NCBI RefSeq assembly: GCF_026616195.1
Contig: NZ_JANHDH010000003.1
Location: 434,001 to 498,000 of the forward strand
Reading direction: 5' to 3'
DNA length: 64,000 bases
Origin: Haloarchaeobius amylolyticus
Lineage (GTDB): Archaea > Halobacteriota > Halobacteria > Halobacteriales > Natrialbaceae
Shown in pieces: positions 672 through 57,703 of the stretch. Numbering within the stretch: the stretch's first letter is position 1; every line of letters begins with the position of its first letter. Both the position numbers and the translations under genes were made by a program. The notes below the pieces were generated by a model that was given only the letters and a program-made list of their open reading frames with translations, did not search any database and was not told where the DNA came from.

Positions 672-696
672 TAGTGGAGACTTGGTCATGTGTGTA

Positions 697-968: not shown

Positions 969-1267
969 CGGTGTCCACCCTTGATGAGAGAGTAGTGGTT
1001 CGCCTGGATTAATTCCTCCGTCGTAATTTTGGTGTACTACACCCGCTGCAGTGTGGAAAACTGGCTCTGTTAAAATGTTCAGTCGCGGGTAATTTTTGGG
1101 GGCCGTGCTGAATACAGGGCGCGAATCGGGTACCGACCACTGGCCAACCAGAGGACGGCTGATCCGGTTGATTCAGAGGGCTGGGTCTGTCACTCGTCAT
1201 CGAGTGGGAGAGAATCACCGTGATTCTGGCACAAAGGCTTTGCCATCAGTTCATAAATAGGACACAT

Positions 1268-1621
1268 ATGGGTTCTGGAATGTGTCGGCGTCACTTTCTT
1301 GTTGGTCTCTCTGTGAGCCTCACCATGCTTGGCGGATGTGGCGAATTTACGGGGACACAACGGTACAGCGTGCGGATTCGAAACGAGACCGAACGTCCTG
1401 TTGACGGGTTTCTGAAAATTGTGTCTACTGATGGTGGGGATGTCGTTCTCGACGAGTCTCTGAATGTGGGGTCGGGCGAACAAGTAGAGTACTGGGTAGA
1501 GGAAGGCAAATATAATCTGGTGGTTACGTATAACGGAAACGAGTCCACACACATCTGGATTGCCGACGAATTAGGGTTGGACGTAGTCATACACGAAGAT
1601 GGGGTCAGTTACCCTGAATGA
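1268..1621 (+). CDS. Tat-type lipoprotein, unknown function
   Basis: The product has an N-terminal CRRHFLVGLSVSLTMLGGC: a twin-arginine motif, a hydrophobic stretch and a lipobox whose Cys would be lipidated after export. The mature part is about 90 residues, beta-rich by pattern and with no recognised domain. A TATA-like CATAAATAG at about 1252-1260 is some 25 nt before an internal ATG at 1280, which could be the true leaderless start (MCRRHFL...). It is the only plus-strand gene in the left half of the element. Confidence 0.75.
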   Translation: MGSGMCRRHFLVGLSVSLTMLGGCGEFTGTQRYSVRIRNETERPVDGFLKIVSTDGGDVVLDESLNVGSGEQVEYWVEEGKYNLVVTYNGNESTHIWIADELGLDVVIHEDGVSYPE

Positions 1622-1777
1622 GCAACTCGCAGTCTCGGTCTGTCGGCGTATTCAGTGAACAGGTGGTGAAACAAACGAACGTCGGGTGCTGACTGCATCC
1701 TCTGTATCTTGCACGGACTTTCTGCCAAGGTCTGAGGAGCTCTATCGAGTCGAGAAACTCTATTTTCTCGCTGCTAC

Positions 1778-3016: not shown

Positions 3017-3375
3017 CTAGTCTCACCTGACATGACTTCCACCTCTGTAGAGTCGCGACAAACTGGCCTGCTTCGCGCAGGCCGATCCAAATCCTTGGTC
3101 CCAACGGGGACCCCCCATCCATTATTGGTTGGTTTTTGCGTTAACGGCCCCTCGGAACAAGCAGTAGAACCGGTGAGATTCCGCCGTAATGCATTGAAGA
3201 CAAAATCCTTCACTGCATCGTCTGTTAACGCATTCGGTCGAATGCTGTAACAGGGTGCAGTCTTGCGGTTTTCCAAATTCCTCTGGTGCGGATTGACTGT
3301 GATTTGTCGCAGTCGCTGGAAATGCTGTACACTGGTTTGAGCGCGTCCGAGATGGATGGATTCGCTATTCATCAC
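3013..3375 (-). other. Doubtful 120-codon frame in a structured spacer
   Basis: The space between the coupling ATPase gene and the primase gene is spanned by a minus-strand frame that overlaps both neighbours by a few bases, as a real operon member would. The predicted product, however, is not acidic, has no recognisable domain or hydrophobic segment, and its middle is occupied by two adjacent hairpins (3065-3112). I consider a structured non-coding spacer more likely than a gene. Nothing else coding is seen here. Confidence 0.3.
3065..3112. ncRNA. Two adjacent perfect hairpins
   Basis: GGCCTGC-ttcgc-GCAGGCC (3065-3083) is a 7-bp stem with a 5-nt loop, and GGTCCC-aacg-GGGACC (3097-3112) a 6-bp stem with a 4-nt loop, separated by 13 nt. 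On the minus-strand transcript both would fold between the ATPase and primase genes. They could be a processing site, an attenuator or part of a replication origin beside the primase. No RNA family is recognised. Confidence 0.4.
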
Positions 3376-6300: not shown

Positions 6301-7651
6301 GGGGGCGTGGCAGTGGGTTGCGACTCTGCTGTTCAGCACGAGTCCCTCTCGCGCCTTCGATGCTGAGTTGCTCAGCCGGCGGAATGAGGATGAAGTTCGC
6401 GAGTTCGTCGCCGTTCAATACGAGGTCTGGTCGCCTCTTGCCCGTGTCTGTGACGAGCTCTCGATTCAGGAGACGTTCCAGTTCCGTTCTGGCGTTCTTC
6501 TGCTTCGTCTTTTGTCGCCACCCTGAATCTCGGAGACTCTTCCCAACGATGCTGTAGTAGGACCCAGCAACCTTCCCGAAGGCAGCCTGGAGTGAATTGA
6601 GCCGTGACTCCAATCGCTTCAAATCGCCGTCGTCAGCTGGAACGGTGACTGCCCGGAGGTTCACGTGGAACGTCCGGTTCGGGGTCTTGTCTCGGATGCG
6701 GCTGACGCGTTTTTTCGCACTTTCGCTCATCAGTCGGTCGGGAGCCTCACTGGATTCCTCGTAGAGTGTCAGGCTGTCACCGACCCATCTCTGAAATGTC
6801 GTGTCCATCCCGCTCTCGAGGTCTTCCATTCGCGTTTCTGCGCTCCCCGTCCAGTCACCGCGACGCTCGAAGACAACCTGGAACGCGATTGGGTGCTCGG
6901 TATCGTTCAGGTGGTCGATGACCGTTGCCAGCGGCAGGTCAGTGACTTCCCCCTCGTCGTCGTTTCCGGATGCTTCCGAGAACGGAGTAATCGTCGTCAT
7001 CCAGTCTTTCTTCCTGGTGGCCGTGCCGAACCACCGGACACCCAACGGGTGAAGTAAACCAACGTCTGGGCGAGCCAGTATGGTCCCATCAGTAGTCAGC
7101 GTCGGTCGGTCGACCACGGTCTGTGTCCCAGGCTCCAAACGCGAGACTGGAGAACCAACCTGAACCAGTGTGTCGCCCACTTCGACCCATGTTTGCTCAC
7201 TGGCGTCCTCTCCGACGGACGTCCCGTCGACGGAGGAGTCCACCTCCTTCGTCTGTCGCTCGTCAGTACCGAACTCGTACAGCAGTTGGTCGTTCTCGAC
7301 TGCCTCGGTAAATTCCTCGCGGCTGTACTCAGCTGGGGGAATCAGTTTGGTCGTTGGGTCGATTTCGACGTGTTCAATGTCGAACGACGACGGGTAGATA
7401 GAGCGAAGCCGAGCTTCGAGCGTGTCGAGGTGCTCGTCAGTCCCGTAGTAGAACTCGACTGGGTCTTCTGGCCCTTCGCTGATGATGAGGAACTCGAATC
7501 GCGGTGGGAGAGTTGAATGGAGTGGGTTAAGCTTTTGCAACAACCCTGGTTGCTCACTCGACCGCAGTGTGTGGAGACTTGCAATCGCCTTCGGAATCCC
7601 GGTCGCAGTGAGTTCTCCCGAGGTCGGTGTGACACGGAGGTATTCACGCAT
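3365..7651 (-). CDS. VirD4/TraG-like coupling ATPase with C-terminal extension
   Basis: A 1428-residue ATPase of the conjugative coupling-protein/HerA class. Walker A GTTGAGKS is at 494-501 and Walker B LIIDEAA, with D776-E777, lies in the second half of the motor. Such proteins bring DNA to the type IV secretion channel at the membrane. The N-terminal 450 residues are a large non-catalytic region without an evident membrane segment. After the motor, about 950-1045 looks like a winged helix, and about 1048-1140 has alternating strand/helix features with AIEVETTT and a downstream Lys, resembling a restriction-endonuclease fold. It overlaps the VirB4 gene by 8 nt, so the two are translationally coupled. 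Confidence 0.8.
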   Translation of the reverse strand: MREYLRVTPTSGELTATGIPKAIASLHTLRSSEQPGLLQKLNPLHSTLPPRFEFLIISEGPEDPVEFYYGTDEHLDTLEARLRSIYPSSFDIEHVEIDPTTKLIPPAEYSREEFTEAVENDQLLYEFGTDERQTKEVDSSVDGTSVGEDASEQTWVEVGDTLVQVGSPVSRLEPGTQTVVDRPTLTTDGTILARPDVGLLHPLGVRWFGTATRKKDWMTTITPFSEASGNDDEGEVTDLPLATVIDHLNDTEHPIAFQVVFERRGDWTGSAETRMEDLESGMDTTFQRWVGDSLTLYEESSEAPDRLMSESAKKRVSRIRDKTPNRTFHVNLRAVTVPADDGDLKRLESRLNSLQAAFGKVAGSYYSIVGKSLRDSGWRQKTKQKNARTELERLLNRELVTDTGKRRPDLVLNGDELANFILIPPAEQLSIEGARGTRAEQQSRNPLPRPHQDIMQELRDGMAIGYALDENSKPEDVPTTVPPGLLPTHYGRFGTTGAGKSVATINDKLSAYANTDGPVILIDRKGDGMAENYMRAHARRFGMTDLEENVIHFRVPNTLPGFSFFDLEPALENGRNRTDAVQRKADHTEEILRLAMGPDAYDSAKVAPTLIKMLVKLLFDEEYGREHGHYRESTDYFEFRHLHQVIDQLREAGPPQVDLSEAPKSSNEAVTRTIRRQLQQDQQSFTIMMNGVSNRLDPISLDDRLRPVFNNTENNFDFRDHLDENTVILFDLGDLRDEAARLMTGLILTNLEDAIREQSHEIPMYPDDYVVNLIIDEAASVVVSDIMNNLLERGRSFRLSVGLSMQFPEQMEAAGGRKMYLNTLNNIGTLLVGKINVDRELARAMAHEEMSPEDFANRIRSLPRGEWIASLPSPTFGETGPYPFSLDPLPIPAGHPESDAPLTKREEQLFSETLSDIHERATDEYGVPDDAAPTTQTPEELHEVLDIDTDELDVAIAKIVRSVQLREGVREENGWVSVETVDDDLRNLFDDVDTDVPSYDELTTIRQRSRFLENTVNIDADEIVIRLTEAGEKIAEPDTGDVRAAGGSDHDAALLEIEEELTSLGFTVTILSQDGSEKSDAQATHPDLEETFAIEVETTTPEYPVKVLTNFRKAQEAEEVPLFVVRTGNEKTDWAKRVDGILNPPVRELDDGSIQFYTTDSTLTFNGGATKEGGVTAVRPRTESSDTNRSVWVQDDGSLVLRDGAGTEHLRVDSFDAVTKNRVPAIYSYDHASAEYLVHEPGETHTYESKADFEADWARINAPFIPAEELPNPEFGTDAYGIVILPEGGESVVYDSGTTVPIQTLLDTSFAVGQREDSFGMAVQEQTQTTPALPSADDDWKDDADAVTGRFASEYLVEDEGESVTSPVVYELYEEWVKSHNLEPDSKGWFGRRLKKHVDFEPATIRQDGSQVRCYEGLRLRRTEVSDE

Positions 7652-9851
7652 CGTCGATCAACTCGCTCCCCCGACCGCCAGTTTCTGCGGAAACGGTGGT
7701 GTCTCCCTTCTCCTGTGATGCCTGTTCGAGTTCCTCGCGAAACATCGCTACGTCCGTTGTTTCAGTGACACGATTCGCACCCGGCAGTGACTCCGTTTTG
7801 TCTTCATTCGCGTCGAAGTCGATGACTGCCTTCTCCTTGGGCATGGCTTCGACCTTGATGCCACGCCATTCCCCGTCAACGCCGACCAGTGCCTCGGAGA
7901 ACCCAGATTCTTCGTTCCCGGGGACCGCGTCCTGCACGTAGCGCATCTGGGCGTAGTTCAGGCCGAACTCGTCGGCCCACTGGTCGTCCATTCCGTCCAG
8001 CCGATGGAACTGCTTGACTGCACACTGGTCGAGGATGGCCTCGGATTCGGTGTGCTCGAAGAACTCGTCGACGGTCTGCGTGACGAGACGAATCGAGAGG
8101 TCGTGGTGGCGGTGATGTCGGAACACCGTTTCGAGGAACGATAGACTCGCGGCGTCCTGCATGATGTAGCGCGCCTCGTCGATGACGAACACGACCTCCT
8201 TGTCCGTCTCCTTCGCCCGTTCGTACACGAGCGAGATGAGCAACTGCATCGTCAGCGCCGTGCTGCTGTCGACGCTGCCCTCCTGTTGTGCAAGGTCGAG
8301 ATAGATGACTTTCTCGTCGCGGATGTCGAACTCTGAAGACTTCCCGAGGTTGGCGTGGCGACCCTCTGCCTCGAACGGACGAAGCTGGTCCAGGAGCCAC
8401 GTCGCGTCCTCGCGGATTTTCCCGGCCTCCTCGTCGGAACGGACCACGAACGACTCGGGGTCGTCGACCATGTCCTCGAAGACGTCCATCATGTCTCGGA
8501 TGGTCGGGCTCGGGTTGCTGTGCGTCGAAATATCGTCGGTGATGTCGTTGCGCTTGTAGGCGCGCTTGAGGCCGACTTCGAGCGTCGTCCGACGGTCACC
8601 GAGCGAGATGCCCCGAAGGGCGAAGAAGTTCGTGAGGAAGCTCATGGCGTCGTCGAGCTTCTCGTTGAACGGGCTCGCGTCCTCACCCATCGCCCGCTGG
8701 ACGTGGTCGGGCGTCTGGCGAATCTCCAGGGGATTCAGCCCGAGCGTCCCACCGACGGTGATGCGTTTCGCTCCGAGTGCTTCGGAGACGCCTGCCCAGT
8801 TGTTGAGCGGTTCGAGGATGATGCCGATGCGGTCCTTACTCTGCTCGATAGAGCGGATGAAGTTCTGTTTCGAGCCGAACGACTTCCCAGACCCAGTATC
8901 GCCGACGGTGAACATCGCATACCCGTTGTCACGTGCGAATGGGTCGATGACGACGGGACTCTGGTTGTCCTTGTGGATACCGAACTCGACCCCGCCCTCT
9001 TCGAGGATAGTCGCGTTATGTGGTGACGAGAGGAGGGCACCAACGGCCCCACCAAGGGCGATAGACTCTCGCCCGAAGACGTTGTCTCCGATGGGAGCAG
9101 CAGACTGCAGTGCGAGGTCCTGTCGACAGATCGCGGTCTTCGGCGTGAGATTCGCAGGGTCGTCACGAAGCGCACTCTTGACCTTCTGAACCGAGTCTTT
9201 GAGACCATCCCTGTCGTCGGCGCGAACCGTCACGAACATCCCCTGGTCGAAGACGTTCGCGCCGCTCTCGACGGCCTTGTACGTCGCAGCAGCTTCGTTC
9301 GCTCGCTCCTGGAGGTATGCACTGCGGACACTCTGTTCCAGATCGGCGTCGACCTGGAGGTCGTCAGCAATGTCCTGTAGTTCGTTCCGTGCTCGCTGCT
9401 GGTTCTTCGGGGTGATGTGCGCTGTGAGGTCGAACTCGACGTCGGTCAACTCGAAGAGGTCGCTCAGATAGCCGTCGTTCGGGTAGTCGGCGTAGTCCGC
9501 GATGTAGAGCGTCGTCGTCCACTGCTCGCCAACGCGTGCGGCTCGTGTCTCCCATTCGATGGCTGCCGGCGCGGTCACCGTCTTGTGGGACTCGGAGATG
9601 TCGTCGAGGAGCTGGCCCTCTGCGTGACCTTCTTCGAGTGTCTCCTCGTCGAGGACATCTGAGAAGTCGACTTCGGGTTCTTCGTCAGCGGTGTGCCGGT
9701 CCCAGAGGAGTTTACCGACGACTCCGAGGACGACAACCAGTATGGCGTACATCGCTGCACCTTCGGGTGACGTGGGGTTCAGGAGCCACTCTGTCAGCTG
9801 GGCGAGTGACCCACCGCTCGCCTGCAAGATGGCGTTACGCATCGGTCTCAT
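7644..9851 (-). CDS. VirB4-like secretion ATPase
   Basis: A 735-residue protein with one N-terminal membrane segment (about 31-50), a VirB4-type N-terminal domain, and a RecA-like motor: Walker A GDTGSGKS at 317-324, Walker B VVFVIDEAR with D558-E559, and a TQTVDE sensor-like segment near 591. VirB4 is the conserved ATPase that powers assembly of conjugative pili and substrate transfer. An alternative start three codons downstream (MRNAIL) is possible. The start overlaps the end of the VirB3-like gene by 17 nt and its end overlaps the coupling protein gene, as expected for stoichiometric subunits of one membrane complex. Confidence 0.85.
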   Translation of the reverse strand: MRPMRNAILQASGGSLAQLTEWLLNPTSPEGAAMYAILVVVLGVVGKLLWDRHTADEEPEVDFSDVLDEETLEEGHAEGQLLDDISESHKTVTAPAAIEWETRAARVGEQWTTTLYIADYADYPNDGYLSDLFELTDVEFDLTAHITPKNQQRARNELQDIADDLQVDADLEQSVRSAYLQERANEAAATYKAVESGANVFDQGMFVTVRADDRDGLKDSVQKVKSALRDDPANLTPKTAICRQDLALQSAAPIGDNVFGRESIALGGAVGALLSSPHNATILEEGGVEFGIHKDNQSPVVIDPFARDNGYAMFTVGDTGSGKSFGSKQNFIRSIEQSKDRIGIILEPLNNWAGVSEALGAKRITVGGTLGLNPLEIRQTPDHVQRAMGEDASPFNEKLDDAMSFLTNFFALRGISLGDRRTTLEVGLKRAYKRNDITDDISTHSNPSPTIRDMMDVFEDMVDDPESFVVRSDEEAGKIREDATWLLDQLRPFEAEGRHANLGKSSEFDIRDEKVIYLDLAQQEGSVDSSTALTMQLLISLVYERAKETDKEVVFVIDEARYIMQDAASLSFLETVFRHHRHHDLSIRLVTQTVDEFFEHTESEAILDQCAVKQFHRLDGMDDQWADEFGLNYAQMRYVQDAVPGNEESGFSEALVGVDGEWRGIKVEAMPKEKAVIDFDANEDKTESLPGANRVTETTDVAMFREELEQASQEKGDTTVSAETGGRGSELIDDA

Positions 9852-10956
9852 CCTCCCGGCGCGAGTGGCCGATAATCGGTTGCTCGCGAATGACGTATGC
9901 TGCGTCGTCGTAGTCGTGCTCCCGTCCGTTCCAGAAGTCCATGTTCAGGACGAACAGTTCGACCGTGCTGAGCCGGCGAGCTGACCACCCCGATGCTTGT
10001 TGGATGAACTCGGATCGGACGTCGTTGATGCGGTTATCGAGTTTTTCGAACATCTGGACCCGCCGTTCGACAGCGGTGAAGTCCTCGCGCCTCGTCACGA
10101 AGGGGTTGAACAGGAACCCGAGGACTGGGAACTGGGTCAATTTCTCCGCAGGCGTTCCTTCGTCTCGATATCGGTCGTAGACTTCCAGCGGAGTCACCTC
10201 GACGCCCATGTAGTAGCGAACCTGTTGGATGCCGCGGTCACGCATCTCCCGGGGGCGTGTCTCGCGGTACTCCTCAAGGAGTTCCCGGAAGATTGCATTC
10301 GCTGCGACATCTTCATCCGTCAGTCGGTCTTCGATGGTCTCCGTGATTTTGTTCACCGGGAATGAGCGGGTCGTTGCGTGAAGTTTGAGCTTCGAATCGA
10401 GTTCCTTGTTCGCGAATTCTTCGCCCACGTTCTGGAGTTGGGCCCAGTCGTTGGACATCGCGAAGTCCATGTTCCCAGGAGCGATCTCGATGAACGCCTC
10501 CATCGTTCCGTCCGTCCGCTGTATTGCGCCTGCCCCTGGCCACGCCCGCTCAACGTTGGTAAGGTCCTGGGTTCGTTCATCGGGCTTGAATGGCGTGTAG
10601 TTCACTAGTCCGCCCTCGTTTCGGTCTGTCTCGTTCGTGCCGCTATCCGCCTCTGCAGGAGCACTGAACGTGACTCGCGGGCGCTTGGCGTACCGATAGA
10701 CGTCTTTGGTCCACGTCCACGCATTCAGGTGGTCGGGAGAGACGTAGATTACTGCAGCACCGAATCCGAGCCCGCCGGCCACAAGCGGGAGTGCGAGCGA
10801 TTCCACTCCGGTCAGGCTCGCGACGAAGAGCCCGATAATCGGGAAGATGATGAGTACGCCGATATCACCCTCCTCGATATTGAGGTAGGGAATCCGGCTC
10901 TCCTCGCCAAACTGGTTCATGATACGCCGTGCTGCTGCGTCTGGATCTGTAGACAT
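9835..10956 (-). CDS. VirB3/PrgI-like membrane protein
   Basis: A 373-residue protein with two close hydrophobic segments (about 31-50 and 53-72) near the N-terminus, followed by a soluble alpha/beta region resembling the N-terminal domain found in VirB4 partners. The position just before virB4 and the paired membrane helices fit the VirB3/PrgI role, in which the protein anchors VirB4 to the inner face of the membrane. It is much longer than bacterial VirB3 (about 100 residues). Start and preceding stop overlap by one base. Confidence 0.65.
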   Translation of the reverse strand: MSTDPDAAARRIMNQFGEESRIPYLNIEEGDIGVLIIFPIIGLFVASLTGVESLALPLVAGGLGFGAAVIYVSPDHLNAWTWTKDVYRYAKRPRVTFSAPAEADSGTNETDRNEGGLVNYTPFKPDERTQDLTNVERAWPGAGAIQRTDGTMEAFIEIAPGNMDFAMSNDWAQLQNVGEEFANKELDSKLKLHATTRSFPVNKITETIEDRLTDEDVAANAIFRELLEEYRETRPREMRDRGIQQVRYYMGVEVTPLEVYDRYRDEGTPAEKLTQFPVLGFLFNPFVTRREDFTAVERRVQMFEKLDNRINDVRSEFIQQASGWSARRLSTVELFVLNMDFWNGREHDYDDAAYVIREQPIIGHSRREDETDA

Positions 10957-12065
10957 TAGTGGATACCTCGGTCGTACTCCATCCCGCGTTTCTCACTCGA
11001 TGCGTCTGCCGTAGGGCCGCTTGGGTCGTTCTCGGTCCGACGGTACGACGGGCCTCCGTCCTCACCATGGCCACCCCGAGCAGCAGCTTTCTGTGCGACT
11101 ACCTGGCCGGCTGCCGCTTTCGGTCCCCACCGCGCTGCGTTCGTCGCGACCCCAGCGCCACCGACATACGCACCGGCTGCGACACCGCCGATGAGGGCCG
11201 CTCCTCTCGTCGTTCCTCCTACGACTCTGGCGGTCAGTGGAGTGGCGTACTTGAACGTCTTCCAAGTGAGATAGACCGCAATCAGGGGTAGGGATGAAGC
11301 GATCAAATACTTCAAAAATGGACTGTTTGGGGTGAGTGCGCCTTCTGAGTACAGTAGATCATATCCTTTGAATACAACCGCTGCTGGGAGTGGAAGGACC
11401 ACAAGTGGTACGAATCGCTTTGAAAAACCCATAGCGATGTCAGAGAGAACCGGGATATTTCCGTAAGCTAAGGCGAACGCAATCGGCATTCCATACACAT
11501 ACACATAGAGCAGAACCTCTCGAACGTAGTAGAGGGCCTCAAGAGCCCACATCGAGAGACCTCCCATAACCGCAAATAGTAGACTGAGCCCCGGGTTGGT
11601 CAGCGACTCCTTTAGGAAATTCAGCATCGCATCTCCCAGTGAGCTTAGACTCGGCATCAGAGCGATTGTAAAACCATCAACTAAGTACAGTCCTAGGACG
11701 CTCACCCAGTACCAACTGATGATAAGAAACGCTCCAACCCAAGCTGTCTTTTTTGTCCGCCTTGCCTCATAGGCGCTTCCAATATTGAAGATACGAACCG
11801 TGTGTCGAGCCTGTACGGACATCACTAGCAAAAGCAATGAAATCAACATAATCTCACCACCAACTAGCGCATCACGAATTGCTGGCCATGGCCCATTCGT
11901 TGGTGCACCGAAAACAAACGCTCCGTCTGTCTTGGGAGTGGGCGTTCCAAACATCTCCGAAGAGAGGGTATCATATCCCGTGTTCAGCCCCTCCATGAAG
12001 AGACTGATCACCCAGTCGACAACCTCTTTGAATCCCTCTAATACAACATCTATTAAATCAACCAT
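10956..12065 (-). CDS. VirB6/TrbL-like polytopic membrane protein
   Basis: A 369-residue protein with about six to seven hydrophobic segments between residues 70 and 300, then a Gly/Ala-rich and hydrophilic tail with Arg and Glu. This layout (many helices, Gly-rich tail) and the location between the lipoprotein and VirB3-like genes are those of VirB6/TrbL, which forms the membrane channel. The gene is the most AT-rich of the operon, particularly 11300-12060. Only 2 nt separate it from the upstream lipoprotein gene. Sequence identity to known VirB6 cannot be seen by eye, so the assignment depends on topology and context. Confidence 0.65.
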   Translation of the reverse strand: MVDLIDVVLEGFKEVVDWVISLFMEGLNTGYDTLSSEMFGTPTPKTDGAFVFGAPTNGPWPAIRDALVGGEIMLISLLLLVMSVQARHTVRIFNIGSAYEARRTKKTAWVGAFLIISWYWVSVLGLYLVDGFTIALMPSLSSLGDAMLNFLKESLTNPGLSLLFAVMGGLSMWALEALYYVREVLLYVYVYGMPIAFALAYGNIPVLSDIAMGFSKRFVPLVVLPLPAAVVFKGYDLLYSEGALTPNSPFLKYLIASSLPLIAVYLTWKTFKYATPLTARVVGGTTRGAALIGGVAAGAYVGGAGVATNAARWGPKAAAGQVVAQKAAARGGHGEDGGPSYRRTENDPSGPTADASSEKRGMEYDRGIH

Positions 12066-12067
12066 AG

Positions 12068-12928
12068 CTACGTCTCGCTAATCGAAATTTCACAGTTATC
12101 GAACTCTTCTGATGCGGAGTACTGGATGCTGTACGTCTTAGAAATCTCTTCAGCTCGGACTCGTGTCTCTAAGATGAGCTCAAACTCACTAGTCTGTTCT
12201 TCGCTCTTGCACGATGTTCCCTCTCCCCGAATGAAAGCAAACGGAGACCGGTAACTGTACAGTGTAATCTGCTCTCCAGGCTCCACGACTACAGATTCGA
12301 CTTCTGTATCCGATTCTGGATCGTAGATGCCGCTTACGTCGTCATTGTCGGCGTAGTTTGTTCCCTCTTCATCTGATGGGTACGGAACATCCCCGATGAA
12401 GAGAAGCTTAGTTACTGCATCCGGGCCACTGCCTCGGTTTTCAACAGTTACGAATGCCTCTTTGGATATTTTATCGCTCGAACCTACCCACATCTTCTCG
12501 GGCTGGTTCCTTCCAATACCCATCTCTACGATGCTGAGGCTCGGCTGTATGGGGAGAGAGGTCTCCACCACACTCCCCTCGCCTTTCAGAGCGACCACGC
12601 GGTATTCACCAGGCTCGTAAGCGGTTCCAATCTCGAACGAGACCTGCCGAGCCCCTGCAGCCACGTCACGCTTCCCGAACAGCTCTCCATTCGGCTGGAT
12701 GAGGTTGACCTGGTCGACGTTGGCTTCTGCCGAGAGTTCGACGACGAGTGTCGTCTCCTCGATAGCGACACGCGTGAGCGGGCCGTCTGTATCTGAGGGA
12801 GTCGTCTCGTCCCCGGGCGTCCCGGAGCTGCCACCGTTGTTCAGACAGCCAGCTACGCTCGCGAGCGTAGCACCTGCGAGTGTTCGGAGGACGTTTCGTC
12901 TACTGAGGTGTGGGGTGTTTCTTGTCAT
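12068..12928 (-). CDS. Tat lipoprotein of the conjugation operon
   Basis: The start is set at ATG 12928, whose ATGA overlaps the stop of the preceding surface-protein gene; upstream frame is an extension without coding character. The 286-residue product begins with SRRNVLRTLAGATLASVAGC, a clear twin-arginine signal with lipobox, followed by a Gly/Ser/Thr linker and beta-strand-rich domains. It would be lipid-anchored on the outer face of the membrane. In this operon it may take the place of VirB7-type lipoproteins or contribute to cell-cell contact; that role is inferred from position only. Confidence 0.75.
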   Translation of the reverse strand: MTRNTPHLSRRNVLRTLAGATLASVAGCLNNGGSSGTPGDETTPSDTDGPLTRVAIEETTLVVELSAEANVDQVNLIQPNGELFGKRDVAAGARQVSFEIGTAYEPGEYRVVALKGEGSVVETSLPIQPSLSIVEMGIGRNQPEKMWVGSSDKISKEAFVTVENRGSGPDAVTKLLFIGDVPYPSDEEGTNYADNDDVSGIYDPESDTEVESVVVEPGEQITLYSYRSPFAFIRGEGTSCKSEEQTSEFELILETRVRAEEISKTYSIQYSASEEFDNCEISISET

Positions 12929-14712
12929 GGGTTTCGTTGGAAGAGGTCTTCTGGACCGAGCATTCTGAGGAGACGATGTCCAGCGTAGAACGCCACGAAG
13001 AACGGGATGAACTGCCAGAAAATCTCGAAGACGAAAGCGAACCAGCCGTCGATGGTTCCGAGTGGGTGCCACCGAGCAGTCGCCGTCTCACTCACATAGG
13101 CCGGGTTGTGGCCGAGCCACGACCCCGGGTGATAGCGTGCTGTGTAGATACCGGGTTGAGCGACTGTCACGATGGCAACGCCTGAAGCGTTGGTCTCGAC
13201 CTCCTGATTGGCGATGGTGATGTAGCCATCACGCGTGCTCCCCCCGATAGGGAAGCGACGGGCGCTGTCATTGAGGATTATCGGTGCGCCAGTCTGGTTG
13301 TCACGCAGTTCGATTCGGAGCGTGGCCTGCGACTGGTTCTGCTGGATGACCTCGACCGTCAGATTGCTGCGTCGGAGCTGCCGCTCGGAACCAGCATCAG
13401 GCTCAATGATAGATGCGTTCACGCCGCGAACGATTCCGGAAACGTGTAGCGCCTCTCTGTCGACGTTTTCGGCACGAACTGCGACACCGTACGTCGTCTC
13501 GTAGGACTGGTTTACGACTTCGATGTTGACGTTCTCGCCGATGGTCCCGAGCGGCGATGGACGCTCGATGCCCCACGTTTCGATGATCTCTGGACCGTCA
13601 CCGACCGGTTCAGCACGTGGTCCAATCCTGGAAGGATAGGCGTGGACGTACACAGGGATGGCGTCGGATTGAACTTCCGTGCTGCCGTTCCGGTCGGACC
13701 TGACGAGCCTGTCCCAGTTGGTGTCGCGGGCAGTGTAGAACCGCCAGACACCACGCACGCTCGCGTTCCCGTCGTCGGTGAGCGTGTACCCCTGCCACGG
13801 CCGAGACTGGAAGATGGCTACGCCAGCGTCACCGTTGGGATACTCGGCGTAGTAAGGGTACGCAGAGAGGTCGTAAATCTCGACGTCAATCGAGTCCGAG
13901 ACGTTTCGCGTCTCCTCACGATAGGTGACGTTCACGCCGGTTCCATTGCCCAGGTTGGTCCGGTTGGTCTTCTTCAGCCGGACATTGATCTCTGCTTCGA
14001 GCGTGAGGGTTGCACTCCAGTCGTCGTCTTCAATCTGGTAGTCGATGGCCGGCGTGTGCGACCCGTCGGTCCTCGAGATGGTTTCTCCGTCTTTCTGTAG
14101 TCGAGCTTCCTCGATTTCGTGGTAGGCGAGCGACCACTCGACGGTCCTGTTCCCCGAGGCGTTGTCGTTTGGGACACGGACGCGGTAGTCGATGAACCCG
14201 CGAATCATCCCATTCGGTGCGATGTACAGTGGGGTCTCACCGGACTCCAAATGGCCCCGGGTCGACGGCTGAACCGCGAATACGGTCGCGTGAGCCTCCT
14301 CGATGAACACACCGTCTTCGAGCGACGCGTGCGGCGGATGGACGGATGTGTTCGAATCACCGGGCTCGAGGTCCTCGAAATCGTTCTGAGTCCACGTTGC
14401 GGCAGTCTCGGGCGGCCGCTTGAACGTGATGTCTGTCCCGTTCGCGAGCTGGTGGATGGCTGTCCGCCCCTCACCGTAGCGCTGGCGGTACTCTTCTTCA
14501 GTGATGTAGTTGTCCGCATCGCGAGACCAGAGTGTTGCAGACTCGTTCTCAGTGAGTCCATTTCCTTCCGTCCCTGGTCGTGGTGGACCTGCCGAGACGA
14601 TACCCGTGACTACACTAGTCACGCAGAGGACTGTGATGAGCACGGAAATTTCTCGGTGTGTTAGGGGTCTCACGATGTGAGCAGTGAGTTTACCAGGGGA
14701 CGAGGTCGACAC
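12925..14712 (-). CDS. Large surface-exposed membrane protein
   Basis: A 595-residue protein with an N-terminal membrane segment (about 21-42), a long extracellular region with more than ten N-x-S/T sequons, and a C-terminal hydrophobic segment (about 558-585). The central part is beta-rich and the region near 480-545 (ETNASGVAIVTVAQPG...) resembles an Ig-like carboxypeptidase-regulatory-type fold. Such a glycosylated double-anchored protein could be a mating-pair or adhesin component. It overlaps the pilin gene by 23 nt and the lipoprotein gene by 4 nt. No named family is recognised. Confidence 0.7.
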   Translation of the reverse strand: MSTSSPGKLTAHIVRPLTHREISVLITVLCVTSVVTGIVSAGPPRPGTEGNGLTENESATLWSRDADNYITEEEYRQRYGEGRTAIHQLANGTDITFKRPPETAATWTQNDFEDLEPGDSNTSVHPPHASLEDGVFIEEAHATVFAVQPSTRGHLESGETPLYIAPNGMIRGFIDYRVRVPNDNASGNRTVEWSLAYHEIEEARLQKDGETISRTDGSHTPAIDYQIEDDDWSATLTLEAEINVRLKKTNRTNLGNGTGVNVTYREETRNVSDSIDVEIYDLSAYPYYAEYPNGDAGVAIFQSRPWQGYTLTDDGNASVRGVWRFYTARDTNWDRLVRSDRNGSTEVQSDAIPVYVHAYPSRIGPRAEPVGDGPEIIETWGIERPSPLGTIGENVNIEVVNQSYETTYGVAVRAENVDREALHVSGIVRGVNASIIEPDAGSERQLRRSNLTVEVIQQNQSQATLRIELRDNQTGAPIILNDSARRFPIGGSTRDGYITIANQEVETNASGVAIVTVAQPGIYTARYHPGSWLGHNPAYVSETATARWHPLGTIDGWFAFVFEIFWQFIPFFVAFYAGHRLLRMLGPEDLFQRNP

Positions 14713-15109
14713 ACTGCGCCAGCGGAAGGCCCATCATCGATCCGGCAACCGTGTACAACGGTCCGAGGATAACGAGGACCACAGCGGACTTCATCGCCGA
14801 GCGCTTGTGGCGCTTGAGTCCCTTCTTCTGGTCCGGGTTGAGCGTGAACATCTCGATGAGGGAGTCAGCCTGCCAGACGACAGCCAGACCAACAATCCCC
14901 AGCCCAGTTGTCAACTGGAAGAAGCCCTCAATCATCTCAGGGAGGTTGTCAGCACCACAAATACCGCTCTGTGCCGTCTGTTGAGCGAGTACTGGCTCAA
15001 CCGCCGCGAGTGAGAGGACTGCGAGAGCGAGTGGGAATTTCAGACTAAGAGCGCCCAGGGCAGTTGTTTTCGGCTTTTCTTGCGGAGAGTCGGGATTTGT
15101 TCCGTGCAT
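14690..15109 (-). CDS. VirB2-like conjugative pilin
   Basis: A 139-residue protein with a secretory signal (hydrophobic 25-40, cleavage plausible after VLA-Q near residue 42) and two further membrane segments (about 60-80 and 107-128) separated by a short basic loop QKKGLKRHKRS. This is the VirB2/TrbC pilin topology. Two Cys residues, in ICGAD and QCVDL, lie at opposite ends of the mature chain and might pair. It is the first gene of the operon, directly downstream of the promoter region shared with the divergent repressor. Confidence 0.75.
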   Translation of the reverse strand: MHGTNPDSPQEKPKTTALGALSLKFPLALAVLSLAAVEPVLAQQTAQSGICGADNLPEMIEGFFQLTTGLGIVGLAVVWQADSLIEMFTLNPDQKKGLKRHKRSAMKSAVVLVILGPLYTVAGSMMGLPLAQCVDLVPW

Positions 15110-15239
15110 ACGTTTCTGTGTTCAGCTGTCCCATCGTCCGAGAGAGTACGTGCTCGCAGCGGATGCGTGGAATCAGCGTTCAGTTCTAGCACTATTCGAC
15201 TGAGTATTTGAATCTGAACATTCGTTCGTATTCTTGAAA

Positions 15240-15330
15240 ATGCGTCTGTATCTCAGGGCAGTTGATAAGATGTCTGAGAAACGCATCGAGTGATATATAC
15301 ATCGCACTGGATGACAGTGCGAATAATCAA
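15240..15330 (+). promoter_or_regulatory. Repressor promoter and operator-like inverted repeats
   Basis: TGATATATAC at 15291-15300 is a good TATA box 30 nt before the ATG at 15331. Between them is a perfect inverted repeat, CGCACTG-gatga-CAGTGCG (15303-15321), covering the expected transcription start. Upstream an imperfect dyad, ATGCGT...CTCAG / CTGAG..ACGCAT (15240-15286), could serve the divergent conjugation operon. The arrangement is that of an autoregulated lysogeny-type switch. Binding by the 15331-15597 product is inferred. Confidence 0.55.
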
Positions 15331-15597
15331 ATGTATCGGGAAGTCGATTGGGCAGTACCTGCGGACCCATACATTCTCGAAGAACTGGGGAAGTACGAGG
15401 GGTGGCACACAGCAAAGAATCTCGAGATTAATACTGAATTCAGCCGGCAGTGGATCTCCCAACGCTGTCCAGTATTTGTCGATTACGAACTTGCCGAGCG
15501 CCACAAGGAGGAACCAGCCTACCGTATCACTGACTTTGGTAGAGGCGTTCTCAACGGTGAAGTCGGATATGAAGAGCTCAACGAGGAGAATGAATGA
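15331..15597 (+). CDS. PhiH1-like winged-helix repressor
   Basis: An 88-residue winged-helix protein: helices ILEELGKYEGWHTAKNLEI, recognition segment EFSRQWISQRCPVFVDYEL, wing EEPAYRITDFGRGVLNGE. The pattern is that of the haloarchaeal phage PhiH1 repressor family, common in integrated elements. The ATG at 15331 is chosen because a TATA box lies 30 nt upstream and the frame before it has no coding character. It is transcribed divergently from the conjugation operon and probably represses that operon and itself. Confidence 0.75.
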   Translation: MYREVDWAVPADPYILEELGKYEGWHTAKNLEINTEFSRQWISQRCPVFVDYELAERHKEEPAYRITDFGRGVLNGEVGYEELNEENE

Positions 15598-15789
15598 ACA
15601 TGGGACGGCCCGAAATCCTTCTGCCTACCCAGTACCGGTTTGATCAGTAGAGGGACTCCCGCCCGTAGATGAGTCAAGCAGGACCTTGACGAATCGAAAC
15701 CTGTTGACGGAAGTGACCGAATCGTCGTGTCACGTGTTCGTGCGAGAATCTGTCGTTGTCGGTGGTCGCTCGCGCGAGTCGTGTCGCTG

Positions 15790-16584
15790 CTAGTGCGACA
15801 GGTCCGACGCTTCGAGCGGCCGCGACGCCTCCCAGTACGCCTCGAACCGGTCGATGGCCCACGACTGGACGGCCTCGGCGTCGGTGTCGATGGAGCCCTG
15901 CAGGATGCCGCGGTCGTCGCGCAACAGCAGGTGGACCACGTCGTCCGCGACGGTCACGGCGAGGGGGACCTCGCCGTCGTAGACCCGGACGTGGGCGTCC
16001 TCGGCCTCCACGAGCGACCTGAGCAGGTGGCACAGCTCAGACTCGGCGGTGAGCGCGTCGATGGCCGAGTTCGAGAAGACGCCGGAGAAGACGAGGTCGC
16101 CGTCTGCGACCTGCTGTTCGACGGTGGCGAGGCTCTGGTTGTTGAAGGCGTGTGAGAAACTGCGGATCTCCGAGCACGCCGTCGTGAGGTCGAGCGTCCG
16201 CTGGAGCGGCGCGCTCGGTCGGGTCTGCGTCGGCTGGACGATGGTCGCGTCGGCGAGGTGGGCGAGGTCGAAGTCGAGCGCGTCGGCCGGCAGGTAGGGG
16301 ACGAGTTCGCGCAGGGATTGCTCGGTCTCGACGATGGTCAGCAGGTTCGTGAAGCCGTCGGAAACGAGTTTTCCGGTCGGCGTCGCGGTGTAGGTGCCGC
16401 CGTCGCGCCGGATCCACGACCGTTCCTCGAAGTCCTCGAGGATGCGCCCGAGCGTGGCCTGGGAAGCGCCCGTCGCGTCCGCGAGGTCGGCCCGCGACTG
16501 TGGCTCTGCGGCGAGTCGCTCCAGCACCGTCACCCGGTTCGCGGAGAGCGCCAGGAACTCGATCTCCTCGAGTGCGGTTTCCAT
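15790..16584 (-). CDS. FilR1-like winged-helix transcriptional regulator
   Basis: A 264-residue protein with an N-terminal winged helix (about 10-75, with SRADLADATGASQATLGRIL as helix-turn-helix) and a middle/C-terminal domain like that of the methanogen regulator FilR1 family, which includes many haloarchaeal regulators of unknown ligand. The start METALEEIEFLALS at 16584 is preferred; the ATG at 16623 adds 13 residues without homologous character. It is the first chromosomal gene right of the element and is transcribed away from the divergent EamA transporter gene. Confidence 0.75.
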   Translation of the reverse strand: METALEEIEFLALSANRVTVLERLAAEPQSRADLADATGASQATLGRILEDFEERSWIRRDGGTYTATPTGKLVSDGFTNLLTIVETEQSLRELVPYLPADALDFDLAHLADATIVQPTQTRPSAPLQRTLDLTTACSEIRSFSHAFNNQSLATVEQQVADGDLVFSGVFSNSAIDALTAESELCHLLRSLVEAEDAHVRVYDGEVPLAVTVADDVVHLLLRDDRGILQGSIDTDAEAVQSWAIDRFEAYWEASRPLEASDLSH

Positions 16585-53473: not shown

Positions 53474-54964
53474 ATGACAGGCGACGACCACCCCCACGGC
53501 CGGTTCGGGGGCTGGCCGACGGACCGCGGGACGGCCCGGCTGGTAGCCGTGGTCTGCCTCGTCGGCCTGCTGGTGGGCGGGGTCGGCCTGTTCGCGACCA
53601 GTTTCCCGACCGATGGCACGGGGAGCGCCGGGTCTGCCTCGGCCATCGACCCATCGGCGAACCTCTCGGACCTGCACGACCGGAGCATCACCGGGGAGAA
53701 CGTCACGGTGGGCGTCGTCGACGTGACCGGCTTCGACACCGACCACCCGGCCATCGCGGACCGCGTCGTGGCGGCGCGCTCGTTCGCGGCGGGCGAGACC
53801 GTGGCGAACGACGGCCAGAACGCCCACGGGACGGCGGCCGCCTCGCTCGTCTCCCGGGTCGCGCCGGACGCCGACCTCTACCTCGCGTCGTTCGATACGG
53901 GGCAGGACTACCGTCGCGCGATGGCATGGATGGTCGAGCAGGACGTCGACGTGGTCGTCGCCCCCGTGACCTTCTACGGGAAGCCCGACGACGGCTCCGC
54001 CCGGGTCGACCGCGTCGCACACAAGGCGCAGTCACAGGGGACCCTCGTGGTGGCCTCCGCGGGCAACCTCGGGCAGAGCCACTGGACCGGACACTTCGAC
54101 CCCGCCGACGGTGCCCACCGCTTCGACCAGCGACTCGCGGACGAGGACGCAGAGACCGAGGACCGCTTCGAGGCCGACACGCGGAACTACCTCGTCGGTG
54201 ACGGCCGGCGGGAGGTCTCGGTCTGGCTCTCGTGGGAGCAGGCGCGACCCGACGCGAACCTCACCCTCGAACTCTACGCCGAGGAACAGGGTGGCTCACG
54301 CCTGGTCGCGCGCTCGCAGCCCTACCGGGCGGACGACGTGCCCAACGAGCGCATCCACGCGACGCTCGACCCCGACGAGTCCTACTACGTCACCGTCACC
54401 GGCGGCGAAACCGCGACCGGCGTCCGGTTCTCGCTCTCCTCGCCGACGCACTCGTTCGAGCACCGCGTCAGGTCCGGGAGCATCGCCGCACCCGCGACCG
54501 CGGAGGACGTGCTCGCCGTCGGCGCCTACAACGGTCGGACCGGACGGGCAGAACCGTTCAGCGGTGCCGGGCCGGTGCCCCCGTCTCGCCTCGGCATCGA
54601 CCTCGTGGCGCCGGACCGGCTGTCGGCCGCGAACCACCCGAACGGCTTCGTCGGGTCGTCGGCGGCCGCCCCGTACGTCGCCGGGGTGGCCGCCCTCGTG
54701 CTGGAGGTAAATCCCGACGCGTCCCCGGCCACGGTCCAGCGCCTGCTACTCGCGACCGCGAGCGACGTCCCACCACAGGGACTCGACCCCGTGTCCGGCC
54801 ACGGGACGGTCGAACCGGCGCGAGCGGTCGCAGCAGCCCAGAACGGGACCACTCAAAACCGGGTTTTAGTAATGCCGAGTTTTAGTAGTGCAGCGATAGA
54901 AACTCCCGATACCGAACATGTCTGGCCTCATCGACCGCATCCAGGACCGAACGGCGACGGCTGA
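53474..54964 (+). CDS. Membrane-anchored subtilase (S8 family)
   Basis: A 496-residue serine protease from ATG 53474. One N-terminal membrane helix (about 22-42) would anchor it with the catalytic part outside. The triad is D83 in VGVVDVTG, H118 in NAHGTAAA and S396 in GSSAAAPYVAG; the oxyanion Asn is in VVASAGNLGQ. Between Asn and Ser an insertion (about 236-330) has the strands of a PPC-like beta sandwich. The last 16 codons overlap the following regulator gene by 47 nt. No propeptide or C-terminal domain is evident. Confidence 0.85.
   Translation: MTGDDHPHGRFGGWPTDRGTARLVAVVCLVGLLVGGVGLFATSFPTDGTGSAGSASAIDPSANLSDLHDRSITGENVTVGVVDVTGFDTDHPAIADRVVAARSFAAGETVANDGQNAHGTAAASLVSRVAPDADLYLASFDTGQDYRRAMAWMVEQDVDVVVAPVTFYGKPDDGSARVDRVAHKAQSQGTLVVASAGNLGQSHWTGHFDPADGAHRFDQRLADEDAETEDRFEADTRNYLVGDGRREVSVWLSWEQARPDANLTLELYAEEQGGSRLVARSQPYRADDVPNERIHATLDPDESYYVTVTGGETATGVRFSLSSPTHSFEHRVRSGSIAAPATAEDVLAVGAYNGRTGRAEPFSGAGPVPPSRLGIDLVAPDRLSAANHPNGFVGSSAAAPYVAGVAALVLEVNPDASPATVQRLLLATASDVPPQGLDPVSGHGTVEPARAVAAAQNGTTQNRVLVMPSFSSAAIETPDTEHVWPHRPHPGPNGDG
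54853..54891 (+). promoter_or_regulatory. Palindrome and 13-mer direct repeat before regulator
   Basis: AAAACC-G-GGTTTT (54855-54867) is a perfect palindrome within TCAAAACCGGGTTTTAG. Two 13-mers, GTTTTAGTAATGC (54863-54875) and GTTTTAGTAGTGC (54879-54891), repeat with a 16-nt period. The second includes a TATA-like stretch about 30 nt before ATG 54918. The elements lie inside the end of the subtilase gene. They are candidate operators for the regulator that follows. Confidence 0.55.
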
Positions 54965-55544
54965 CGAGCGGATGCGCGTGCTCGGGATGGCCGAGGCCGA
55001 CACGGACGAGGTGCTCGACGCGCTCTCCTCGGAGACCGGGCGGACAACCTTCCGGACGCTGTTCGACGAGCCCGGGACCGCCTCCGAGCTGGCCGACCGG
55101 CTCGACACCTCCGTCCAGAACGTCCACTACCACCTGACGAACCTGCAGGACGCCGACCTCGTCGAGCCCATCGACACAATCTACTCGGAGAAGGGGAACG
55201 AGATGACGGTCTACGGCCCGGCGAACGACCCCCTCGTGTTCGTGGGGGACGACGACCGCCGGTCGGTCGTGGAGACCTCGCTGACGCAGGTCGTCGGCGG
55301 CCTCGGGCTCCTCGCGGCCGGGAGTCTGCTCGTCCAGTGGGGCGCCGAGCGACTGGTCCGCGAAGGGACGGCGGGTGGGGCCACTGGCGGCCCGGCCGGC
55401 CCTGCCGGGGAAGCGGCTCCGTCACTGTTCGCCGACGGGTCGCTCGGCTACCTCGTCTTCGAGGTGTTCGAGCCGGGGTTGCTCTTCTTCGCGTCGTGTC
55501 TCATCGTGGCCGCGGTCGTCGCGGTCGGCTTCAGGGACAGCTAG
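54918..55544 (+). CDS. Membrane-anchored winged-helix regulator
   Basis: A 208-residue protein. Residues about 30-95 form an ArsR-like winged helix (ALSSETGRTTFRTLFDEPGTASELADRL, NVHYHLTNLQDADLVE, wing KGNEMTVYGP). After that are two hydrophobic segments, about 122-140 (TQVVGGLGLLAAGSLLVQW) and 180-203 (GLLFFASCLIVAAVVAVGF), so the DNA-binding domain would face the cytoplasm from the membrane. A Gly/Ala/Pro linker joins the helices. It overlaps the subtilase gene; a surface protease paired with a membrane regulator suggests signal-dependent processing. Confidence 0.8.
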   Translation: MSGLIDRIQDRTATADERMRVLGMAEADTDEVLDALSSETGRTTFRTLFDEPGTASELADRLDTSVQNVHYHLTNLQDADLVEPIDTIYSEKGNEMTVYGPANDPLVFVGDDDRRSVVETSLTQVVGGLGLLAAGSLLVQWGAERLVREGTAGGATGGPAGPAGEAAPSLFADGSLGYLVFEVFEPGLLFFASCLIVAAVVAVGFRDS

Positions 55545-55621
55545 GTTACGTTTCGGAAGAAGACGGATTCGAGACGAGTTCGTTCGCCTGTCGCCGATAC
55601 AGCGATGAAAACGTGGGAGGG

Positions 55622-57103
55622 CTAGTTCGCGACCTTGAGCAGGTAGAGCACGCCCGCGATGGCGAAGACGCCACCACCGACGAGCGCGCCTGCGCCGACG
55701 AAGTCGAAGTCGTCGTCACCGGGTGAACTCGAGTCCGGGCCGGCGTTTTCGCCAGCGGTCTGGTTCGTCCCGGCGCTGGAACTCGTCGTCCCCTGCGCGG
55801 TGTCGAGGTAGAAGCCATCGCGGACCGCGAGCGTCCCCACGTCGTCGGCACCGTCGGTGTTCGTCCCGCGGTAGAGCGAGATGTCGAACATCGCGGCCGG
55901 TAGCCCGGTGTCGAGCGTCGTCTCGCTCTTTACGGTCACCGAGTCGGGACCGTCGGCCGCGGTCAGCGTCGCCTCGTCCGGGTCGCCCGCGGCGGCGGTA
56001 TCGAAGCGCAACTGGACGACGCCGTCGTCGTTCCCGTCGCTGACGGTCGCCGTGAGCGCGTAGCCCGCACCGTCGCTCCCGACCGTGATGGTCGCCTGCT
56101 CGCTGGTGCCCATCGAGAGCCAGAAGCTTGATACGTCGCCCTGCTCGGTCGTGACGATGTCCTCCTGGAGACCGAACTCCCCGGCGCCGTCGGGCCAGGC
56201 CTCGTAGGAGTACTCCGTCTCCTCAGCAGACTCGTTGGCCTGGACGACCATCGAGGACACCTGCACCGCCGACTCGTCGGTGGTGCTCTGCCCCCGGTGG
56301 AGACTGAACTGGTACGACCCCGCGTCCATGATGCCCAGCGACGGCTTCCACTGCGTCTCCGAGCCGGAGTGGACTCGGAGGGAATCCCCTTCGTCGGCGA
56401 CGGAGAGCGTCTCTGCAGGGTGGCCCGCGTTCACCGTATCGAAGAGGACGACGACGCGACCGTCGCCGGTTCCGTCGCTGACCGTCGCGTTGATACGGTA
56501 GTTCACCTCCTCGGACCCGATGGCGAGCGTCGCCTCGTCGGCGTCGCCGAGTGCGACGGGTATCGGGATTTCTTCGCCCTGCGCGCCGACGACCGGGTCC
56601 GGGACCGCGAGGTCCTCGCTACCGAACTCGTCGGGGTCGGTCGGGTCGAGGTTCCGGTCCTCGACGGGCATCGTCGCGGTCAGGTCGTCGCTACAGTCGC
56701 CCGAGCACTCGACGACGGTCCCGTTCTCCGTGGCGAGCGATTCGCCGTCGCTGACGGCCGAGACCTCGAACGTCACGCCGGGTTCGACGTCGGAGAAGTC
56801 GAACGTCGCCACGAACCGCCCCTGCTCGGTGACGACGACCTCCGTCGTCTTCAGGAACGGCTGGCTGGAGTCTGTCGACTGGATGCGGACGCTGACGTGC
56901 GTGCCGGCGGGCAGGTCGGACTGGCCGACGATGGCCTGGTCCTTGCCCGCGGCGACGGTGACGGTGTCGCCCTCGTGGACGAACGTCGTGCCGTCCGGGG
57001 CCTCGGACATGGAACCGGCCGCCGCGGCACTGGCCGCAGGCGCGAGTGTGCCCATCGCGAGCACTGCCACCAGTGCCAGTGCGAGCGTCGATCTGTCGGT
57101 CAT
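55622..57103 (-). CDS. BGTF-type surface protein
   Basis: A 493-residue exported protein. A signal peptide (about 1-26, ending ASAAAAG), repeated beta-rich BGTF-like modules (FDTVNAGHP and FDTAAAGDP segments mark two homologous units with the theme YxxxATVSDG.GDG.V.L.FDT), a Ser/Thr/Gly linker, and a C-terminal membrane helix (about 467-489) are visible. It resembles haloarchaeal S-layer-associated proteins, anchored without a PGF motif. It lies convergent to the regulator gene; its upstream region carries a copy of the regulator palindrome. Confidence 0.8.
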   Translation of the reverse strand: MTDRSTLALALVAVLAMGTLAPAASAAAAGSMSEAPDGTTFVHEGDTVTVAAGKDQAIVGQSDLPAGTHVSVRIQSTDSSQPFLKTTEVVVTEQGRFVATFDFSDVEPGVTFEVSAVSDGESLATENGTVVECSGDCSDDLTATMPVEDRNLDPTDPDEFGSEDLAVPDPVVGAQGEEIPIPVALGDADEATLAIGSEEVNYRINATVSDGTGDGRVVVLFDTVNAGHPAETLSVADEGDSLRVHSGSETQWKPSLGIMDAGSYQFSLHRGQSTTDESAVQVSSMVVQANESAEETEYSYEAWPDGAGEFGLQEDIVTTEQGDVSSFWLSMGTSEQATITVGSDGAGYALTATVSDGNDDGVVQLRFDTAAAGDPDEATLTAADGPDSVTVKSETTLDTGLPAAMFDISLYRGTNTDGADDVGTLAVRDGFYLDTAQGTTSSSAGTNQTAGENAGPDSSSPGDDDFDFVGAGALVGGGVFAIAGVLYLLKVAN

Positions 57104-57225
57104 GGCTGCACCTCTGGTCTCTGTGTCGGTCTGCGAGCTCTACAGCGTGGAGGGGCTGTTTCGAGCGGGTACCTGACAGTCATCGCATGTGGATAGTGTG
57201 GCTGGTGAAGGATATTGAAACCGAT

Positions 57226-57243
57226 AGTTCAAAATCGGGTTTG
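57226..57243 (-). promoter_or_regulatory. Palindromic motif upstream of surface-protein gene
   Basis: TCAAAATCGGGTTTGAG (57227-57243) is nearly the same as TCAAAACCGGGTTTTAG at 54853-54869: 15 of 17 bases agree. It lies about 125 nt before the surface-protein start and close to a TATA-like CAATATCC (minus strand, around 57210). It is a candidate binding site for the membrane-anchored regulator. Confidence 0.5.
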
Positions 57244-57304
57244 AGTGGTCGGTGAAACGACAGGGCAGAGATTTCTGGAAACAGAGTAGAAGAATCCCGC
57301 AGCC

Positions 57305-57703
57305 TCAGGCGACCGTGTAGGTGCCGATGATGTTGCTTGAGGAACCGCTGGATGCGGACCAGACGATGTTCACCTTCTGGCCACTCGATGCCGAGATGGT
57401 GAAGGTTTCGCCAGCGGTCCACGAAGTGTCACCGCTGAATGGTGACGTCTGATCGACACCGTCAACAGTGAACGTCACCTGGCCCGTGGCAACTGACTCA
57501 CCGCCATCGTGGGTGATGTCCAATCCAGTACCATTCACTGCGAACGAGAAACTCGCCTGCGGCACCTTCTCCTGGTTCCCACCGATGTTCAGCACGAACG
57601 CGCCGATGACGGCGGCGAGGATGACCGTGATGGCCACCATGAGGATGACGCCGATGACCGGCGACACTGCGCGCTTCTCCGTGAATAGCTGTGTAAGTTG
57701 CAT
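57305..57703 (-). CDS. Archaeal type IV pilin
   Basis: A 132-residue type IV pilin-like protein. A short basic leader with [31 protein letters not shown] is the conserved haloarchaeal pilin N-terminus; cleavage by the prepilin peptidase is expected just before AVSPVIG. The helix drives assembly; the mature domain is beta-rich ([19 protein letters not shown]...). Role is adhesion or biofilm-type pili. No assembly genes (pilB, pilC) are in the window. Its promoter is far upstream (see leader). Confidence 0.9.

Follow-up and report, generated by a model that had tools for sequence, protein, structure and literature searches.

How might a winged-helix regulator held in the membrane control a surface-protein gene, and what part would a neighbouring protease play in that control? 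The question is raised by a 64,000-nucleotide stretch of Haloarchaeobius amylolyticus DNA (the window), in which genes for a subtilase, a membrane winged-helix regulator, a BGTF surface protein and a type IV pilin follow one another (Table 1). All four genes named in the initial annotation were recovered by Pfam and NCBIfam searches where it had placed them, and the palindrome that it reported before the regulator and before the surface-protein gene is present as two 18-mers, identical at 15 of 17 positions on the same strand. The overlap that it described between the subtilase and regulator genes is real in the window (47 nt) but is not conserved, as most orthologous subtilases end 50–90 nt before the regulator. 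The overlap was rejected as a mechanism, since only in the window and in one or two other genomes (L051 and L105) does the subtilase frame run up to or past the start of the regulator. The pilin, which had been counted as part of the same module, was rejected as a member because it is not conserved near the locus and its promoter carries no copy of the operator. Elsewhere in the window, positions 1–16000 are low in GC (0.53–0.61 versus 0.66–0.74 in the rest) and contain long minus-strand open reading frames that match an NrS-1-type polymerase domain, HerA/TraG-like ATPases and AAA-like ATPases; this part is probably an integrated plasmid or conjugative element.

Table 1. Features of the locus, with positions in the window
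Feature	Position	Strand	Remarks
N-terminally membrane-anchored subtilase (S8)	53474..54964	+	PF00082, 4e-29
Operator palindrome CTCAAAACCGGGTTTTAG	54852..54869	+	48 nt before the regulator ATG, within the subtilase reading frame
Probable BRE/TATA segment in the regulator promoter, GAGTTTTAGTAG	54877..54888	+	Assigned from position and the orthologue consensus ACAGgncTTaGtgG
Membrane-bound regulator, 208 aa	54918..55544	+	HTH_20, 6.6e-12; HVO_1552_C, 2e-9
Predicted extracytoplasmic loop codons of the regulator (residues ~153–174)	55374..55439	+	GPAG is the local version of the orthologue GPASP
BGTF/DUF7827 surface protein	55622..57103	-	NF045517, 1.1e-23; two DUF7827
Short upstream ORF MTVRYPLETAPPRCRARRPTQRPEVQP (then stop), 27 aa	57183-57100	-	Start 44 nt after the operator; CCTCC and GAGGTG motif
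Putative TATA-like element of the surface-protein promoter	57213..57221	-	Assigned from position
Operator palindrome CTCAAACCCGATTTTGAA	57228..57245	-	Upstream of the surface-protein transcription unit
Type IV pilin	57305..57703	-	Pilin_N, 1.1e-23; real gene, outside the module

Co-occurrence beyond this strain had been set beforehand as a test of the proposal, and comparison of genome sequences confirms a conserved module of subtilase, regulator and BGTF surface protein that is kept, together with the shared operator, across several haloarchaeal families. The regulator search covered 195 genomes of the order, 194 of them besides that of the window, and returned a clear top class of orthologues (E below 1e-56) in 26 other genomes. 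The subtilase lies directly upstream of the regulator on the same strand in 25 of these 26 loci, and 25 of 26 have a BGTF gene (24 in the neighbourhood survey, with L058 found later); the orthologue L071 has neither gene as a neighbour. Searching in reverse, with the subtilase as query, gave 26 strong matches (E below 1e-90; the next at 7e-62), every one of which adjoins a regulator by comparison of coordinates, with none found away from a regulator. The module occurs in Haloarcula, Halomicrobium, Halomicroarcula, Halosimplex, Halorussus, Halorientalis, Halorubellus and Halorarius. The arrangement of the main lineages has the subtilase directly before the regulator (same strand, 50–90 nt) and convergent with the surface gene; Natrialba, Natrarchaeobius and Salinadaptatus differ in that the surface gene precedes the subtilase and shares its strand. 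Two Halosimplex species keep the regulator, the operators, the surface gene and the loop motif described below with no subtilase next door, which shows that the regulator and surface gene form the core and that the protease is a usual but dispensable partner. Within the window's own family the distribution is patchy (8 of 125 genomes and none of five congeners carry a regulator orthologue), and in the regulator tree the window groups with Halorubellus, Halorarius, LT46 and a Natronomonas MAG (support 0.88, with weak deeper nodes). Recent acquisition of the window's module from Haloarculaceae, considered in the light of this patchiness, is at most possible, as the tree shows only this grouping. 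Extra BGTF genes, divergent and upstream of the subtilase, are seen in L047–L049, L084 and L087, and an operator separates the subtilase from the divergent extra gene in L049 and L087.

The regulator falls within the PF24267 (HVO_1552_C) family, scoring 38 bits against a cut-off of 27, and combines in one protein a DNA-binding domain (HTH_20) with two predicted C-terminal hydrophobic helices. Its AF2 model comprises a confident winged helix (residues 26–101), a first transmembrane helix (112–152), a disordered outer loop (about 153–174) and a second transmembrane helix (175–207) containing a conserved EPG, and the winged helix stops about 10 residues before the first transmembrane helix. The domain search found no HAMP match in the protein. 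From this model, the predicted topology is that of a one-component transmembrane transcription factor, with the winged helix in the cytoplasm, two helices through the membrane and a short flexible loop outside. The loop is variable apart from a PAS/PAG motif, which reads PAG rather than PAS in the window. A P[AT]S motif is found in the loops of 43 of 49 distinct regulators with a neighbouring subtilase versus 3 of 25 without one (it is absent from the L071 regulator); two of these three are the Halosimplex orthologues and the rest of the non-subtilase group are paralogues, so that phylogeny accounts for part of the contrast. The motif is a candidate site at which the subtilase may contact or cleave the regulator.

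The subtilase has the residues expected of an S8 protease. By sequence, Asp83, His118, Asn198 and Ser396 are in place in the window copy as catalytic triad and oxyanion Asn, with one residue inserted after the Asp (D-V-T-G rather than D-T/S-G) and an inserted beta domain between the Asn block and the Ser block; the window copy contains no twin-arginine motif. His118, Asn198 and Ser396 are invariant among the orthologues and Asp83 is nearly so; the catalytic Asp is lacking in L050 and in L051 and L105, two loci that may come from one strain, and some of these subtilases may therefore be inactive.

Two roles can be considered for such an enzyme. It could serve only in the maturation or quality control of the surface protein, with the regulator sensing something else and proteolysis lying outside the signal. 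We hold this to be a serious possibility, with a chance a little short of even: a protease and its substrate are often encoded together, the subtilase usually has no operator of its own, and the two Halosimplex species retain the remainder of the module with no subtilase beside it. What a maturation role would leave unaccounted for is the placing of the subtilase directly before the regulator in the main lineages, the fact that its close homologues never occur away from a regulator, and the retention of the PAS motif in a flexible outer loop whose other residues vary. The other role, which we prefer, is in signalling: the membrane-anchored subtilase would act outside the cell, most likely on the regulator loop or on the surface protein, and would in this way link surface-protein output to the condition of the envelope. 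That the regulator itself is the protein cleaved is a tentative proposal, drawn from the loop motif and the co-occurrence of the genes, to which we give about a third of our belief.

The regulator would exert its effect through the palindrome. The operator consensus is GTTAAAnCCGGATTTAAG, built on GTTAAA-N6-TTTAAG. Allowing up to one mismatch, the loose pattern CTCAAANCCGNNTTT matches three times in the window (0.06 expected), and the exact pattern occurs in the whole 4.6-Mb genome only at the two sites of Table 1 (reversed control, 0). In every one of the 25 module orthologues the palindrome lies 62–76 nt ahead of the regulator start, with related sites at -63 and -61 in the distant module loci L077 and L082, respectively. 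A symmetrised matrix was derived from 26 regulator sites (window included), the surface-gene upstream regions lying outside the training set; its best site before the surface gene scores 9.6–22.7 in 24 of 26 loci (L058 included), versus 13 of 819 control stretches of 400 nt scoring above 9.5. Before the surface genes of L046 and L065 the operator is weak or unclear. Where the surface gene is relocated and inverted, in Natrialba and Natrarchaeobius, an operator precedes it still (scores 9.5–19); in L083, L093 and L104, too, one stands before the BGTF gene that lies farther off, and the site likewise stays with the surface gene after insertions in other genera. The strict pattern is confined to the module promoters in two Haloarcula genomes and is found at one further place in a third. 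A further palindrome, TTTAAAACYAGTTTTTAG, is present in Haloarcula (L053–L062). It lies at about -1800 relative to the regulator and roughly 400 nt before the subtilase, where no gene start is obvious nearby.

The position of the operator bears on the sign of the control. In the surface promoter, the palindrome is followed by CTAWCG, about six bases, a weak TATA (e.g., CTTTTT) and an ATG 41–44 nt past the palindrome. In the regulator promoter, with the consensus ccGgTTAAAtCngGnTTTAAgCtAnGnACAGgncTTaGtgG, the operator ends about 10 nt before a weak TATA-like element. Of the protein-coding transcripts of Haloferax volcanii, 72% are leaderless, and CGAAA and TTWT have been given as the BRE and TATA motifs of haloarchaea (PMC4983044). 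Taken with these motifs, the promoter layout places the operator directly upstream of BRE. The activators ArnR and ArnR1 bind flaB from -43 to -84, likewise upstream of BRE/TATA (PMC6396743), which makes activation the preferred reading; by this analogy, the regulator is on balance probably an activator, most likely of its own promoter and that of the surface protein.

The rival reading is a repressor that blocks both promoters at the palindrome and is relieved by a membrane signal or by cleavage. The nearest solved folds of the regulator are ArsR-type, the best matches including ArsR/SmtB repressors and the P. furiosus heat-shock regulator, and ArsR-type winged helices are mostly repressors; autoregulation through a shared operator is common among repressors, and the right half-site TTTAAG is itself TATA-like. 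Against this stand a second TATA-like element at a constant distance after the operator and, in surface promoters, leaderless starts 41–44 nt past it, which put the operator upstream of BRE and not over the TATA or start site. These second elements are weak (CTTAGTGG and CTTTTTGG), and repression is in our judgement possible, at about a third of the weight. In the reading that we prefer, a dimer of the regulator would bind the palindrome just upstream of BRE/TATA, and we hold it very probable that the regulator controls both its own promoter and that of the surface protein.

The paralogues bear on whether the local protein is the one that binds. Among paralogous regulators without the module, 12 of 21 (some of them close relatives of each other) carry a site between -57 and -78 relative to their own start that scores above 8, where 0.04 would be expected, which ties the palindrome to the regulator family and not to surface genes. 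No other evidence speaks as strongly as these sites for binding by the local regulator, and the palindrome is probably the regulator's own operator. It is improbable that another transcription factor occupies the palindrome and that the local regulator is merely one of its targets: membrane regulators can act on distant genes, but the paralogues elsewhere bear the same palindrome before their own genes, and the pattern is nearly absent from other places in the genomes tested. We note that L119, L121–L126 and the paralogue in the window's own genome, L078 (G000:C1:1322427-1322912), are each preceded by a palindrome of this kind, and this suggests a family-wide autoregulatory operator across the wider, uncharacterised haloarchaeal membrane winged-helix regulators. 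Surface proteins and subtilases are numerous in haloarchaeal genomes, and the pilin is just such a chance neighbour, but a chance neighbourhood of unrelated surface-related genes is contradicted by the reciprocal co-occurrence over several families and by the operator moving with the surface gene, and hardly deserves credence.

The target of the proposed circuit scores 83 bits with NF045517 (BGTF; cut-off 40), a cut-off that all six orthologous surface proteins scanned also exceed, and is predicted to have a signal peptide, Ig-like beta domains and a C-terminal transmembrane anchor. With the S-layer equivalog model NF041335 it reaches 114.8 bits where 1100 are called for. No PGF-CTERM motif was seen by eye in the window protein, and the sequence comparison with solved structures gave no credible match; the fold comparison returned general Ig-like matches, the Haloferax S-layer protein among them, at low TM-scores.

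At most loci, the ATG 43 or 44 nt past the operator opens not the surface protein but an open reading frame of 26–49 residues; at the others, the ATG at the same distance is the surface-protein start itself. The stop codon of the short frame overlaps the surface-protein start as ATGA or GTGA in nearly all loci that have one (ATGA in the window), with a GGAGGTG-type motif just before. The amino-acid sequences of the short frames differ between lineages; CCTCC, which is complementary to the SD, is present in 35 of 38 (7.4 expected from dinucleotide shuffles), conserved in nucleotides and not in amino acids. In the leader frames of L049, L055, L086 and similar loci it often reads GCCCTCCA, and in L049 it also occurs in the leaderless surface gene, with no SD following. 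Sequestration of the surface-gene SD by CCTCC, though striking in composition, was rejected, as the predicted folds do not consistently pair the two and their energies give no support (z near 0). Termination-reinitiation through ATGA overlaps is established in Haloferax volcanii (PMC6728339). If transcription of the surface gene usually starts on the short-frame AUG or close beside it, as the layout suggests, the surface protein would be made by termination-reinitiation after the short frame, and we propose this mode of translation.

In sum, we favour, as the probable explanation of the whole, a locally acting envelope-signalling circuit. Its module, shared operator, link to the regulator family and short-frame layout are supported by sequence comparison; we infer the activation from the membrane and the choice of protease substrate (outer loop or surface protein). 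Control by proteolysis or membrane stress, which the initial annotation had put forward, may apply to this circuit. In its most complete form, a membrane-anchored extracellular subtilase would cleave or clip the PAS loop of a membrane winged-helix regulator that controls its own gene and that of an S-layer-like protein made by reinitiation. Such three-component envelope sensing would be a convergent counterpart of bacterial site-1-protease envelope-stress pathways, with neither sigma factor nor intramembrane protease, and in this full form we think it rather unlikely.

Little has been established about the ways in which archaea monitor and adapt their envelope, ArnR and ArnR1 being the characterised membrane-bound archaeal regulators that we found. 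The module pairs a defined regulator and a conserved operator with one dedicated surface-protein target and adds a candidate input by proteolysis; it is present in culturable species of Haloarcula, Halorussus and Natrialba. As a whole family of haloarchaeal membrane regulators, so far uncharacterised, seems to share the operator, one binding result would open the family.

The initial annotation knew of no described system of this composition. The open-access literature searched likewise contained no description of the module or of HVO_1552-type regulators and no functional study of PF24267 regulators. The regulator and its many paralogues belong to that family by domain match, but the paralogues, about half of those sampled having the autoregulatory palindrome, are without subtilase, surface gene and PAS loop. 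The transmembrane transcription regulators (TTRs) as a broad class share with the regulator a DNA-binding domain and transmembrane helices in one protein, and the passages covered of their census (PMC10269533) contain no module of subtilase, regulator and surface protein. Like the Haloferax S-layer glycoprotein (NF041335; 7ptp) and BGTF/DUF7827 proteins, the surface protein has a BGTF domain, DUF7827 repeats and an Ig-like beta fold; unlike that glycoprotein, it lies far below the equivalog cut-off, has a C-terminal transmembrane anchor and stands behind the module operator. The 4-nt ATGA overlap and internal SD motif recall the termination-reinitiation pairs of Haloferax volcanii (PMC6728339), whereas the upstream frame here is a leader of 26–49 residues with low conservation and a conserved CCTCC, situated at the predicted transcription start.

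The closest analogue is the ArnR/ArnR1 pair of Sulfolobus acidocaldarius (PMC6396743). Both are, like the regulator here, membrane-bound one-component proteins with an N-terminal HTH and two C-terminal transmembrane helices, and in both systems inverted repeats lie just upstream of BRE/TATA and the targets are surface-structure genes. However, ArnR has HAMP and sensor regions where the present regulator has an outer loop of about 20 residues and no HAMP; its boxes read TCGAC-N5-GTCGA rather than GTTAAA-N6-TTTAAG; its partners are kinases and its targets archaellum and pili, in place of a subtilase and an S-layer-like BGTF protein; and its sequence family differs from the HTH_20 plus HVO_1552_C architecture seen here. 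The module can be described as a kind of transmembrane one-component regulator that is new in its partner protease, its operator, its target and its leader ORF.
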